Position numbers and translations under genes: made by a program. Positions 22,437 to 26,269 of a stretch of 64,000 nt of DNA are shown here, piece by piece. The stretch's first letter is position 1, and the number at the start of each line of letters is the position of its first letter. The notes beneath the pieces were generated by a model that saw nothing but the letters and a program-made list of their open reading frames with translations, did not search any database and had not been told where the DNA came from. Origin of the DNA: Alphaproteobacteria bacterium (GTDB taxonomy: Bacteria; Pseudomonadota; Alphaproteobacteria; UBA828); assembly GCA_022826665.1 (NCBI GenBank), contig JAJDUK010000103.1, forward strand, positions 1 to 64,000, in the 5' to 3' direction.

Positions 22437-23360
22437 CTAGGAGCGACCCTCCAGCGCGCGGCGGACGGCGACGAGCTGGCCGGCCCGCTTGCCTTGCAGG
22501 GCTTTGATGTCGTCAGGCGTGTACGAGAAAATTCCGGTCCCGGTCTTCATGCCGAGATCGCCTTTCTCCGTCCGCTCGGTGATGTAGGTGCTCACATTGT
22601 CGCGGTTGCAGAGGTCGGCGTTCAGGTAGCTGCCGACTGCCTGGTAGATGTCGAGGCCGGCCATGTCGAGCAGCGACATCGGCCCCACCACCGCGAGCTT
22701 GTAGCCGATGCCCCAGGAGACGCAGGTGTCGAGGCCCTCGGGCTCGATCACGCCGTTCTCCACCAGATCGCAGGCCTCGCGCATGATCGCGTAGAGGATG
22801 CGGTTCTCGACGAAGCCGGGCACGTCCTTCTTCACCACCACCGGCAGCAGGTTGAGGTCCTTGATCGCCTGCACCATCGCGTCGCAGGTCGCCTGCGTGG
22901 TCTCGGCGCCGGCGATGACCTCGATGACTGGGATGATGAAGGGCGGGTTCGACCAGTGCATGCCGACCATCCGGCCCGGCGCCGAGTTGCCCTCCTGCAG
23001 CGTGGTCACCGGGATGCCCGAGGTGTTGGAGGCGAGGATGCACTCCGTCGAGACCAGCTTGTCGAGGTCCGCGAACACGGCGCGCTTGATCTCGACCTTC
23101 TCGGGCACGCTCTCCAGCACGATGTCGCAGCCAGCGACGGCATCGGCGAGGGTGTCGTGATAGCTGATCAGCTCGGCTCCGCCGCGGTCGGGCATGCCGA
23201 GCTTCTCCAGCACGCCGAAGGCGATGCCAGCGGTGCCCGGCGCCTTCTCGAGCTGTGCCGCTTCGGTATCGAAGGCGCGGACCGTGAGCCCGCCGCGCGC
23301 GAGCGTTGCCGCCATGCCGGGCCCCATGGTGCCGAGGCCAACTACCGCTGCCGTGGTCAT
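22437..23360 (-). CDS. 3-hydroxyacyl-CoA dehydrogenase family NAD-binding protein
   Basis: The 307-residue protein has an N-terminal Rossmann motif VVGLGTMGPGMAATLARGG and the conserved VLESVPEKVEIKRAVF and ILASNTSGIPVT. The His-Glu pair of the family lies in GMHWSNPPFIIPVIEVIAG. A C-terminal helical domain carries DVPGFVENRILYAIMREA and ends near GIFSYT. It should oxidise a 3-hydroxyacyl-CoA or similar hydroxy acid with NAD+. The enoyl-CoA hydratase part found in fused beta-oxidation proteins is absent. It is 50 bp downstream of the gentisate-dioxygenase-like gene. Confidence 0.9.
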   Translation of the reverse strand: MTTAAVVGLGTMGPGMAATLARGGLTVRAFDTEAAQLEKAPGTAGIAFGVLEKLGMPDRGGAELISYHDTLADAVAGCDIVLESVPEKVEIKRAVFADLDKLVSTECILASNTSGIPVTTLQEGNSAPGRMVGMHWSNPPFIIPVIEVIAGAETTQATCDAMVQAIKDLNLLPVVVKKDVPGFVENRILYAIMREACDLVENGVIEPEGLDTCVSWGIGYKLAVVGPMSLLDMAGLDIYQAVGSYLNADLCNRDNVSTYITERTEKGDLGMKTGTGIFSYTPDDIKALQGKRAGQLVAVRRALEGRS

Positions 23361-23409: not shown

Positions 23410-24564
23410 CTAGTCGAGGCGGACCGTGTCGCCCGAGGCGTCGCGGCCCCATTTCCTGAAGTGGCCGAGCGCGTGGAGCGCCGGCTTGTCGCTCGCCACG
23501 AAGAGGATGGCGGGCTCGGTCTCCGAATCGTTGACGTGGTGGCACCACCGGCCGCCGGGCACCGCGAGCGTGTCGAAAGGCCGCCAGTCGAAGCGGGTCT
23601 CGCCCACGACGCTGTGGCCGCGCCCCTCGAGCGGGGAAACGAGCAGACTGGCGGTCTGCTTGAGCGGCCGGGTCTGCTCGCCGGGCCTGAGCATCTGGGC
23701 GTAGAAGGTCATGGTCCTGAACACAGGGCCGCCGCGGGTGGGGTCCACGTATTCTACCATCAGGGCCTCGTAGGGGTCGCCGTCGCGGTCCCGGTGCGCG
23801 TCCAGCATCGTGCGCATGGGCTCCCAGCGGTAGACGTACATGGGCGAGCCCGTGCCGCTGCCGCGGCCGTGGGGCACGAAGCAGGGCATCAGGCCGCCGG
23901 AGCCGTAGACCTCGGCCGAATAGTCCGCGCTGAAGCGGGCGGACTGCTCCTTCGCGGCGACCGCGCGGCCGTCCTTCTCTTCCTTGTAGTCGTGCTCGAA
24001 GTAGATCGCGTTGAGGACCTCGACCAGCGGCAGGTCGAGCACGGAGAGGTTCACGGCGGGCTCGTCGCCCTTGTTGCCGTGGTTGTGCCAGGTGTCCTGC
24101 GGCGTCAGCACCATGTCGCCGGGACCGAAGACGATGTCCTCGCCCTCGACGCCGGTGAAGTTCATCGAGCCCGTGAGGCCGAGGCGGATGGCGTTGGGCG
24201 AATGGCGATGGGGCGGCATCACCTCGTTGGGGTCGTTGAGCCGGTAGGCGGAGTACATGGTGGAGACGGTCGCGCGGGTCGGCGCGAGGCCGGGGTTGAC
24301 CAGAATCAGCGAGCGGCGCTCGGAATCCGCCATCGAGACCAGCTCGGCCGAGCGACGGAGCAGGGGCCCGATCTCGCTCTCGTAGCGCCAGAGATAGGGG
24401 ACCGCGCCGCGGCTCCCCATGAGCTGCTTGATCTCGTCGTGCGCGACCTCGGTGGTGGTCGCCCAGAAGGGGAACATGTGGCCGCGGTGGACATCGTCGT
24501 AGAGGGCGGCAAGCGCCGCCTCGCGATTGCTCGCGTCTGTGCTCACCGGCTGCGCCTCGGTCAT
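23410..24564 (-). CDS. Gentisate 1,2-dioxygenase-like bicupin
   Basis: The 384-residue protein matches the gentisate/salicylate 1,2-dioxygenase family in length and layout. The N-terminal cupin carries the iron-binding cluster PPHRHSPNAIR, then GPGDMVLTPQDTWHNHGN with the third His. A second, degenerate cupin contains VPGGRWCHHVND near the C-terminus. These enzymes cleave the ring of gentisate-type hydroxybenzoates to maleylpyruvate-type products. No maleylpyruvate isomerase or fumarylpyruvate hydrolase is in the window, so the true substrate may differ. It lies between the FAD oxidoreductase and the dehydrogenase genes on the same strand. Confidence 0.88.
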   Translation of the reverse strand: MTEAQPVSTDASNREAALAALYDDVHRGHMFPFWATTTEVAHDEIKQLMGSRGAVPYLWRYESEIGPLLRRSAELVSMADSERRSLILVNPGLAPTRATVSTMYSAYRLNDPNEVMPPHRHSPNAIRLGLTGSMNFTGVEGEDIVFGPGDMVLTPQDTWHNHGNKGDEPAVNLSVLDLPLVEVLNAIYFEHDYKEEKDGRAVAAKEQSARFSADYSAEVYGSGGLMPCFVPHGRGSGTGSPMYVYRWEPMRTMLDAHRDRDGDPYEALMVEYVDPTRGGPVFRTMTFYAQMLRPGEQTRPLKQTASLLVSPLEGRGHSVVGETRFDWRPFDTLAVPGGRWCHHVNDSETEPAILFVASDKPALHALGHFRKWGRDASGDTVRLD

Positions 24565-24694: not shown

Positions 24695-25864
24695 TTAAGC
24701 CTGAGGAAGTACGTCCTCGGGCGAGTGGGTGAGGGCGACGCAACCGAAGAGGCGAGCGGTCGCGTCCGGATCAGGCTGGATTGCGCGGTAGTACGCCGCC
24801 AGCGTCTCCGTCGGTCTGGCGAAGCGGGCGAGCTGGGCGGTGAAATGGTAGTAGGGCAGCAGCCAGGCGTCGCGCGCTTCCCCGTAGGCGGCGAGCGCCT
24901 CGTCGAGCGGACGCCGGCCGCTGAGCCCGTCGTCGGCGGCCTCGGCCAGCATCTCGGCGCAGCGGAACGCGGTCGAAATGCCCTGCGCGGTCACCGGGTC
25001 CTTCTTCATGCCCGCATCGCCGACCAGGGCCCAGCCGGGGCCGGCCGCCTCGCGCACGAAGGCCCGCGTGCAGCCGGCGTGGAAGTGCTCAACTTGGCCG
25101 GCGCCGGGCAGCGTCTCGCTCAGGTCGGGCGCTACTTCGTTGAGTCTCGCGTGGAAGGCCGCCGCGCGGTCCCGCCGGGCGGCCACGAACTCGTCGTGCA
25201 TCAGGTTGGCGGCCACCAGCACGGTGCCATCGCTCGCGGGGAAGGCGAAGGCGCCTTTGTGCTCTCGGATGTAAAGCCTGACGTGGTCGAGCGCGATGCC
25301 CTCCCAATAGCTCCAGATGTTGCTCTGCACGACCGGCTCGCACAGGGACTCTTTTGCACCGGTACAGCGCGCGACGACCGAGGCGGGCCCGTCCGCGCCG
25401 ATGACCAGGCGCGCGCGCTCGGTTTGACGCCTGCCGTCCCGACCCAGAATCACGACGCCGGCGACCGCGCCGTCATCCTCGACCAGATCGACCACGCGCG
25501 TGCCGTCGCGAAACTCTGCGCCGGCGGCGACGGCCGCCTCCGCCAGCGTGCCGTCGAGCAGCTGCCGCCGGGGCCCGTAAGACTCGTGCTGGCCATCCAC
25601 CGCAGGTGGCGCACCCCCAAGCACGGTGCCGTGGAGGTCGACCCGCCACTTGGTGAAGGGCTCGGCGCGCGCCGCGATCCGCGGCAGTACGCCCCAATCG
25701 CGCAGGTGAGCGGCGCCCAGCGGATGAATCAGGTGCGTCGATTGCCCCATCTCGCTGGGGAAACGATCACGGTCGAGCAGCAGCACGCGGTGGCCCTTGC
25801 GGGCCAGAAGCATGGCTGTGGGCGCACCCGCGCAGCGGGCGCCGACGACGATCGCGTCGTAGAT
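24695..25864 (-). CDS. FAD-dependent monooxygenase/oxidoreductase with apparent ATC start codon
   Basis: The reading frame encodes a flavoprotein of the geranylgeranyl-reductase/hydroxylase type. It has an N-terminal dinucleotide-binding motif AIVVGARCAGAPTAMLLARKG, LLLDRD at the end of the second strand, RLVIGADGPASVVAR, and WALVGDAGMKKDPVTAQGIS. The first ATG (25813) lies inside this motif and would remove the glycines. Upstream, before the stop codon at 25880-25882, there is no ATG, GTG or TTG. An ideal AGGAGG sits six bases before ATC (25862-25864), which would give a 389-residue protein starting (M)YDAIVVG. Either ATC initiates or an ATG to ATC mutation has crippled the gene. It lies 15 bp after the VOC gene. 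Confidence 0.85.
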   Translation of the reverse strand: MYDAIVVGARCAGAPTAMLLARKGHRVLLLDRDRFPSEMGQSTHLIHPLGAAHLRDWGVLPRIAARAEPFTKWRVDLHGTVLGGAPPAVDGQHESYGPRRQLLDGTLAEAAVAAGAEFRDGTRVVDLVEDDGAVAGVVILGRDGRRQTERARLVIGADGPASVVARCTGAKESLCEPVVQSNIWSYWEGIALDHVRLYIREHKGAFAFPASDGTVLVAANLMHDEFVAARRDRAAAFHARLNEVAPDLSETLPGAGQVEHFHAGCTRAFVREAAGPGWALVGDAGMKKDPVTAQGISTAFRCAEMLAEAADDGLSGRRPLDEALAAYGEARDAWLLPYYHFTAQLARFARPTETLAAYYRAIQPDPDATARLFGCVALTHSPEDVLPQA

Positions 25865-25879
25865 CGCGCGCCTCCTAGA

Positions 25880-26269
25880 TCATTCGCTGCACTCGAACGG
25901 GGTGACCCAGCCGATGGAGGCGCCGGCGCTGTCCTTGACCACGGCGAAGCGGCCGACGTCGGGCACGTCGAAGGCCGGGCGCATGATCTCGCCGCCCGCC
26001 GCCTCGACCCCGGCGAGCCGGGCGTCGATATCGTCCACGGTGATGTAGGAGAACCAGTGGTCCGGGACGCCGTCAAAGCCCGTGCCAGGCTTCATCTCGA
26101 AGATGCCGGCGGCCATGGTCTCGCCGGCCTTGCAGAGCGTGTAGGTGCCGCCGTCGGCCATCGGGTGCGACTCGTACTGCCAGCCCAGGGTCTCCCCGTA
26201 GAAGTCCTTGGCCTTGTCGACGCTCCAGGTCATCAGCTCGTTCCAGAAGAATGTACCGTGTGCCTTCAT
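25880..26269 (-). CDS. VOC-family protein (glyoxalase/bleomycin-resistance fold)
   Basis: The 129-residue protein starts MKAHGTFFWNELMT and has the paired beta-alpha-beta-beta-beta modules of VOC proteins: DKAKDFYGETLGW, GVPDHWFSYITVDD and IDARLAGVEAAGGEI. It ends SAGASIGWVTPFECSE. Such proteins bind a metal and act as lyases, isomerases or dioxygenases, and the substrate cannot be told. A longer frame is open upstream, but it only shadows the amidase. The stop codon directly precedes the ribosome site of the FAD oxidoreductase. Confidence 0.88.
   Translation of the reverse strand: MKAHGTFFWNELMTWSVDKAKDFYGETLGWQYESHPMADGGTYTLCKAGETMAAGIFEMKPGTGFDGVPDHWFSYITVDDIDARLAGVEAAGGEIMRPAFDVPDVGRFAVVKDSAGASIGWVTPFECSE

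Follow-up and report, generated by a model that had tools for sequence, protein, structure and literature searches.

A genus-wide ATC codon as the probable natural translation start of an alphaproteobacterial FAD-dependent oxidoreductase gene

Comparison of the window, a 64,000-nt stretch of alphaproteobacterial DNA, with congeneric genomes indicates that the FAD-dependent oxidoreductase gene it carries is functional and that, judging from sequence, translation very probably starts naturally at AUC throughout the genus. The original prediction had left two options for this gene: either translation naturally begins at ATC, or a change from ATG to ATC has inactivated it. The former is favored by the genus-wide presence of the ATC and its Shine-Dalgarno (SD) sequence, the intact open reading frame (ORF), and a low dN/dS; the latter did not stand. 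To our knowledge, conserved natural AUC starts outside infC have seldom been documented. The AUC start of the FAD gene is unusual but belongs to a known class, with infC, the GTC start of sigR, and the ATA start of ccpN. Gene callers limited to ATG, GTG, and TTG would drop 17 residues from the protein, including the FAD loop, and the annotation is worth correcting. More generally, the case shows that raw DNA compared among congeners can tell a rare but natural start apart from a dead gene or an error.

Start site in the window and across the genus

The FAD gene (positions 24695..25864, minus strand; 389 codons from the ATC plus a stop) lies behind a VOC/glyoxalase-family gene (25880..26269, minus strand; Pfam Glyoxalase, E = 1.6e-10), whose TGA stop is 15 nt before the ATC. 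Read directly on the minus strand, the end of the VOC gene runs into the FAD gene as GAA TGA TCT AGG AGG CGC GCG ATC, with the TGA at 25882-25880, the AGGAGG SD at 25871..25876, a 6-nt spacer (CGCGCG, 25870-25865), and the ATC start codon at 25862..25864. The codons that follow, TAC GAC GCG ATC GTC GTC GGC GCC CGC TGC GCG GGT, encode the N-terminal FAD motif. The original prediction described the stop, AGGAGG, spacer, and ATC correctly in every detail, including a ribosome-binding site six bases before the ATC. It had also stated that no ATG, GTG, or TTG occurs between the stop and the FAD motif; a start codon scan of the window detected none of these in frame between the VOC stop and the ATC, and CTG was absent from this interval as well. 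The VOC and FAD frames coincide in the window, and the in-frame stop before the FAD gene is the VOC TGA itself. The first in-frame ATG (25811..25813, minus strand), codon 18 from the ATC and the start given in the mechanical ORF list, is not credible. It is located 17 codons after the ATC, beyond the G-A-R-C-A-G dinucleotide-binding loop, just as had been foreseen in placing the first ATG past the glycines. Fold energies of the RNA around the start were no better than those of shuffled sequences (z = 0.19 and 1.10).

To determine how broadly this arrangement is shared, we compared the window's source genome (G000, a 4.63-Mb draft; 99% complete, 4% contamination) with its congeners. The gene is carried by seven of eight congeneric genomes, the window's own counted; completeness of the eighth is just 62%. 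The proteins of the six other congeners are 83 to 93% identical to the window protein, and these genomes are separate named MAG records assigned to Rhodospirillales/Alphaproteobacteria from different projects and assemblers. Two marks of a natural AUH start were found: a conserved start codon (ATC at codon 1 in all seven genomes with the gene) and a properly spaced SD (GGAGG in six of the seven, spanning −11 to −7; G006 has the weaker GGGGGA). In five of the seven species (the window and four others), an in-frame stop lies 6 to 7 codons upstream, and no ATG, GTG, TTG, or CTG precedes the ATC. In-frame GTG triplets occur 8 and 9 codons upstream in G004, and an in-frame ATG occurs 54 codons upstream in G006; apart from these remote alternatives, no canonical start able to give a complete protein was found.

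All seven species retain an intact ORF under purifying selection, with whole-gene dN/dS values of 0.14 to 0.28 at dS up to 0.6. Constraint extends up to the ATC: pN/pS for codons 2 to 17 is 0.07, versus 0.27 in the remainder, and the protein is almost invariant downstream of the ATC. Upstream of it, indels occur and codons vary among species. Invariance of the triplet is by itself weak evidence, because most Ile residues of the gene are encoded by ATC (64 of 71) and a third of fourfold sites (33%) likewise show no variation in the seven species. The start assignment follows instead from the combination of three observations: no other start in five species, a well-placed SD, and protein constraint that begins at the ATC.

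The encoded enzyme and alternative readings of the start

The predicted protein matches Pfam FAD_binding_3 from residue 3 onward (E = 2.6e-22; 80 bits versus a cutoff of 22), and homologs align across residues 1 to 389. In an AlphaFold2 model (mean pLDDT, 84.7), beta-strand 1 comprises residues 2 to 7 and helix A residues 13 to 22. Among the best Foldseek matches (probability 1.00; TM-score to the query, 0.67 to 0.81), the same whole-length fold is found in the FAD_binding_3 flavin-dependent halogenases/monooxygenases Bmp2, CndH, PqsL, and kynurenine monooxygenase, which differ in sharing only ~20% identity with the FAD protein. All NCBIfam equivalog matches shown were below curated cutoffs, the best being TIGR02032 (98.4 of 158.8 bits).

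These data bear on whether translation starts elsewhere, at the internal ATG (codon 18), a second ATC (codon 5), or an upstream GCG, AGG, or ACG, which we regard as unlikely. Although ATC is a common codon within the gene and upstream GTG and ATG codons are present in G004 and G006, respectively, the upstream stop in five of seven species leaves no standard start before the ATC. Codon 5 falls within beta-strand 1 and is separated from the SD by 18 nt. In the predicted fold, a start at codon 18 removes beta-strand 1 together with the FAD loop and truncates helix A. The original prediction had listed an ortholog N terminus at the internal Met as evidence against a rare start; such a protein would lose the first strand and the loop just mentioned. 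The upstream noncanonical codons are not the same across species.

Two further readings are far less probable. In the first, an ATG-to-ATC point mutation or assembly error confined to this genome inactivates or misreads the gene. A distant G000 paralog does carry ATG at exactly this position, but this account is already refuted by the ATC common to seven species from several independent assemblies. Since the six other genomes come from different projects and assemblers, a sequencing error or recent private mutation is excluded; the intact ORFs and dN/dS values argue against inactivation. An ATG at 25862..25864, which the original prediction had named as contrary evidence, was not encountered, and the six other assemblies likewise show ATC. 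In the second reading, the VOC and FAD proteins are fused through stop codon readthrough or frameshifting. In the window the two genes share a frame, separated only by the TGA and five codons. Among congeners, however, the frame relation is not constant: the spacing from the VOC stop to the ATC is 15, 18, 18, 18, 18, 19, and 20 nt in the seven, so that all three frames are represented, and in G006 and G004 the FAD gene is out of frame with VOC. With this variation, neither readthrough nor a fixed frameshift can be the general mechanism, and the SD is retained at the correct spacing to the ATC.

Rare starts in the genus and the proposed mechanism

To assess how rare such starts are, we surveyed 1.23 Mb of G000 containing 828 coding ORFs, about a quarter of the genome, for ORFs in which an SD of at least 5 bases is followed by ATC, ATT, or ATA and no canonical start comes earlier; starts with a weak SD are missed by this survey. 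The window gene was the sole case in which the stretch before the first canonical start looked coding (score, +0.31; the other listed cases were negative). With a single case in the 828 genes of these 1.23 Mb, general adoption of ATC starts in G000 was rejected.

The same count weighs against the idea that an altered initiator tRNA anticodon (e.g., GAU) lets this genus treat ATC as an ordinary start, which we consider extremely improbable. No initiator tRNA gene turned up in the G000 assembly to be read directly, which leaves this idea some room, but stand-alone 45-bp copies of the tRNA-fMet 3′ half in G001 and G002 carry CAT, which suggests an ordinary initiator anticodon. These copies (G001:C328:20381-20425 and G002:C45:25205-25249) run from CATAACC to CCA, are 100% (G001) and 96% (G002) identical to the query, and look like attachment site remnants of elements that integrate into tRNA-fMet.

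A looser scan recovered two other genes, infC and tlyA. infC starts with ATA in all five congeners examined (ATA GCG AGA CAT; G000:C74:129352-129606). An AUH start is the expected class for this IF3-autoregulated gene, and its presence means that such starts are already in use in the genus. A tlyA-like gene (G000:C58:55368-56090, minus strand) has no ATG, GTG, or TTG before its conserved N terminus; a CTG start overlapping the dxs stop (CTGA) in six of six congeners is plausible. Noncanonical starts are therefore present in the genus but few.

Several documented systems resemble the FAD gene. infC, which encodes IF3, is autoregulated by that factor from an AUU, AUC, or AUA start and, like the FAD gene, combines an AUH start with an SD, conserved among relatives; Streptomyces infC begins with ATC (PMC5472188). 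infC, however, encodes the start-reading factor itself, whereas the window gene encodes a metabolic flavoenzyme for which a direct feedback loop is not evident. In Streptomyces sigR, GTC is the start in 32 of 34 species with the conserved sequence AGGAGGTG, and initiation there is repressed by IF3 (PMC5472188). sigR resembles the FAD gene in its strong SD and in a rare start retained across a genus, but the codon is GTC, the product is a sigma factor, and the start was shown experimentally, in contrast to the FAD gene, which is known from its sequence. ccpN (AUA) and cvfC1 (AUU) of Staphylococcus have extended SDs, and their expression is ~10% of that from AUG in poor medium (PMC13009471). They share with the FAD gene an AUH start and strong SD kept among relatives; they differ in the extended SD and in proof by ribosome profiling, whereas the present case is an alphaproteobacterial AUC assigned by comparison of genomes.

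That ribosomes use this AUC is what we infer from a conserved ATC, a conserved SD, and an intact, constrained gene, all of which are observed directly. In the proposed mechanism, the AGGAGG six bases upstream, just past the VOC stop, would hold the 30S subunit, and initiator fMet-tRNA (anticodon CAU) would be accepted on AUC despite the third-base mismatch; the first residue of the protein would still be formyl-Met. In measurements from Escherichia coli cited in PMC12350097, AUC belongs to the seven codons that initiate most strongly, and IF3 disfavors weak third-base pairs (PMC10158994). Expression from noncanonical starts rises 3- to 15-fold in E. coli infC mutants (PMC5472188). By analogy with the systems above, the AUC start is probably weak and IF3 sensitive, and synthesis of the enzyme is likely to be low relative to its operon neighbors and dependent on the IF3 level. 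Translation of the FAD enzyme is possibly coupled to that of VOC. A more speculative proposal, which we hold to be doubtful, is that infC (ATA), the flavoenzyme (ATC), and tlyA (apparent CTG) form an IF3-tuned set of weak starts that respond jointly; if true, such a set would tie a catabolic step to the state of the translation machinery.

Gene neighborhood and origin of the ATC start

The VOC gene is the upstream neighbor in all congeners examined, and the order amidase-VOC-FAD is kept in all of them. Downstream in the window is a gentisate-1,2-dioxygenase-like cupin gene (23410..24564, minus strand; Cupin_2, E = 2.1e-20; TIGR02272, E = 1.6e-61, below cutoff). Also nearby are an amidase and a hydantoinase-type subunit, with a caprolactamase-alpha-like protein near the cupin. 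This neighborhood fits a cluster for aromatic or N-heterocycle catabolism. It also includes a 3-hydroxyacyl-CoA-dehydrogenase-type protein (22437-23360, minus strand), whose match to the FHMPC dehydrogenase model of vitamin B6 catabolism reaches 481 bits, below the cutoff of 500.

Outside the genus, the start differs. Orthologs from sister genera (56 to 61% identity) have an ATG or GTG start 6 to 8 codons upstream of the aligned ATC column, which indicates that the ATC start is genus specific. The column itself is occupied by Gln, Pro, Ala, or Lys in these genera, and because it varies, Ile is not a conserved internal residue. None of the window's neighboring proteins was detected within the sister-genus loci examined, some of which were short, and the ATC start may be tied to the operon arrangement of this genus.

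Two origins can be envisaged. Either an operon rearrangement behind VOC recruited the ATC together with a new SD, or an ancestral ATG was changed to ATC. Under rearrangement, the gene would have been placed directly behind VOC in the ancestor of the genus, with loss of the old start. The motif pattern used in the search for ancestral starts missed several distant class-level homologs. It is the upstream ATG and GTG starts of the sister genera that suggest how a rare start may arise on operon rearrangement. Distant paralogs in G000 and G001 (43%) have an ATG directly before Tyr-Asp.
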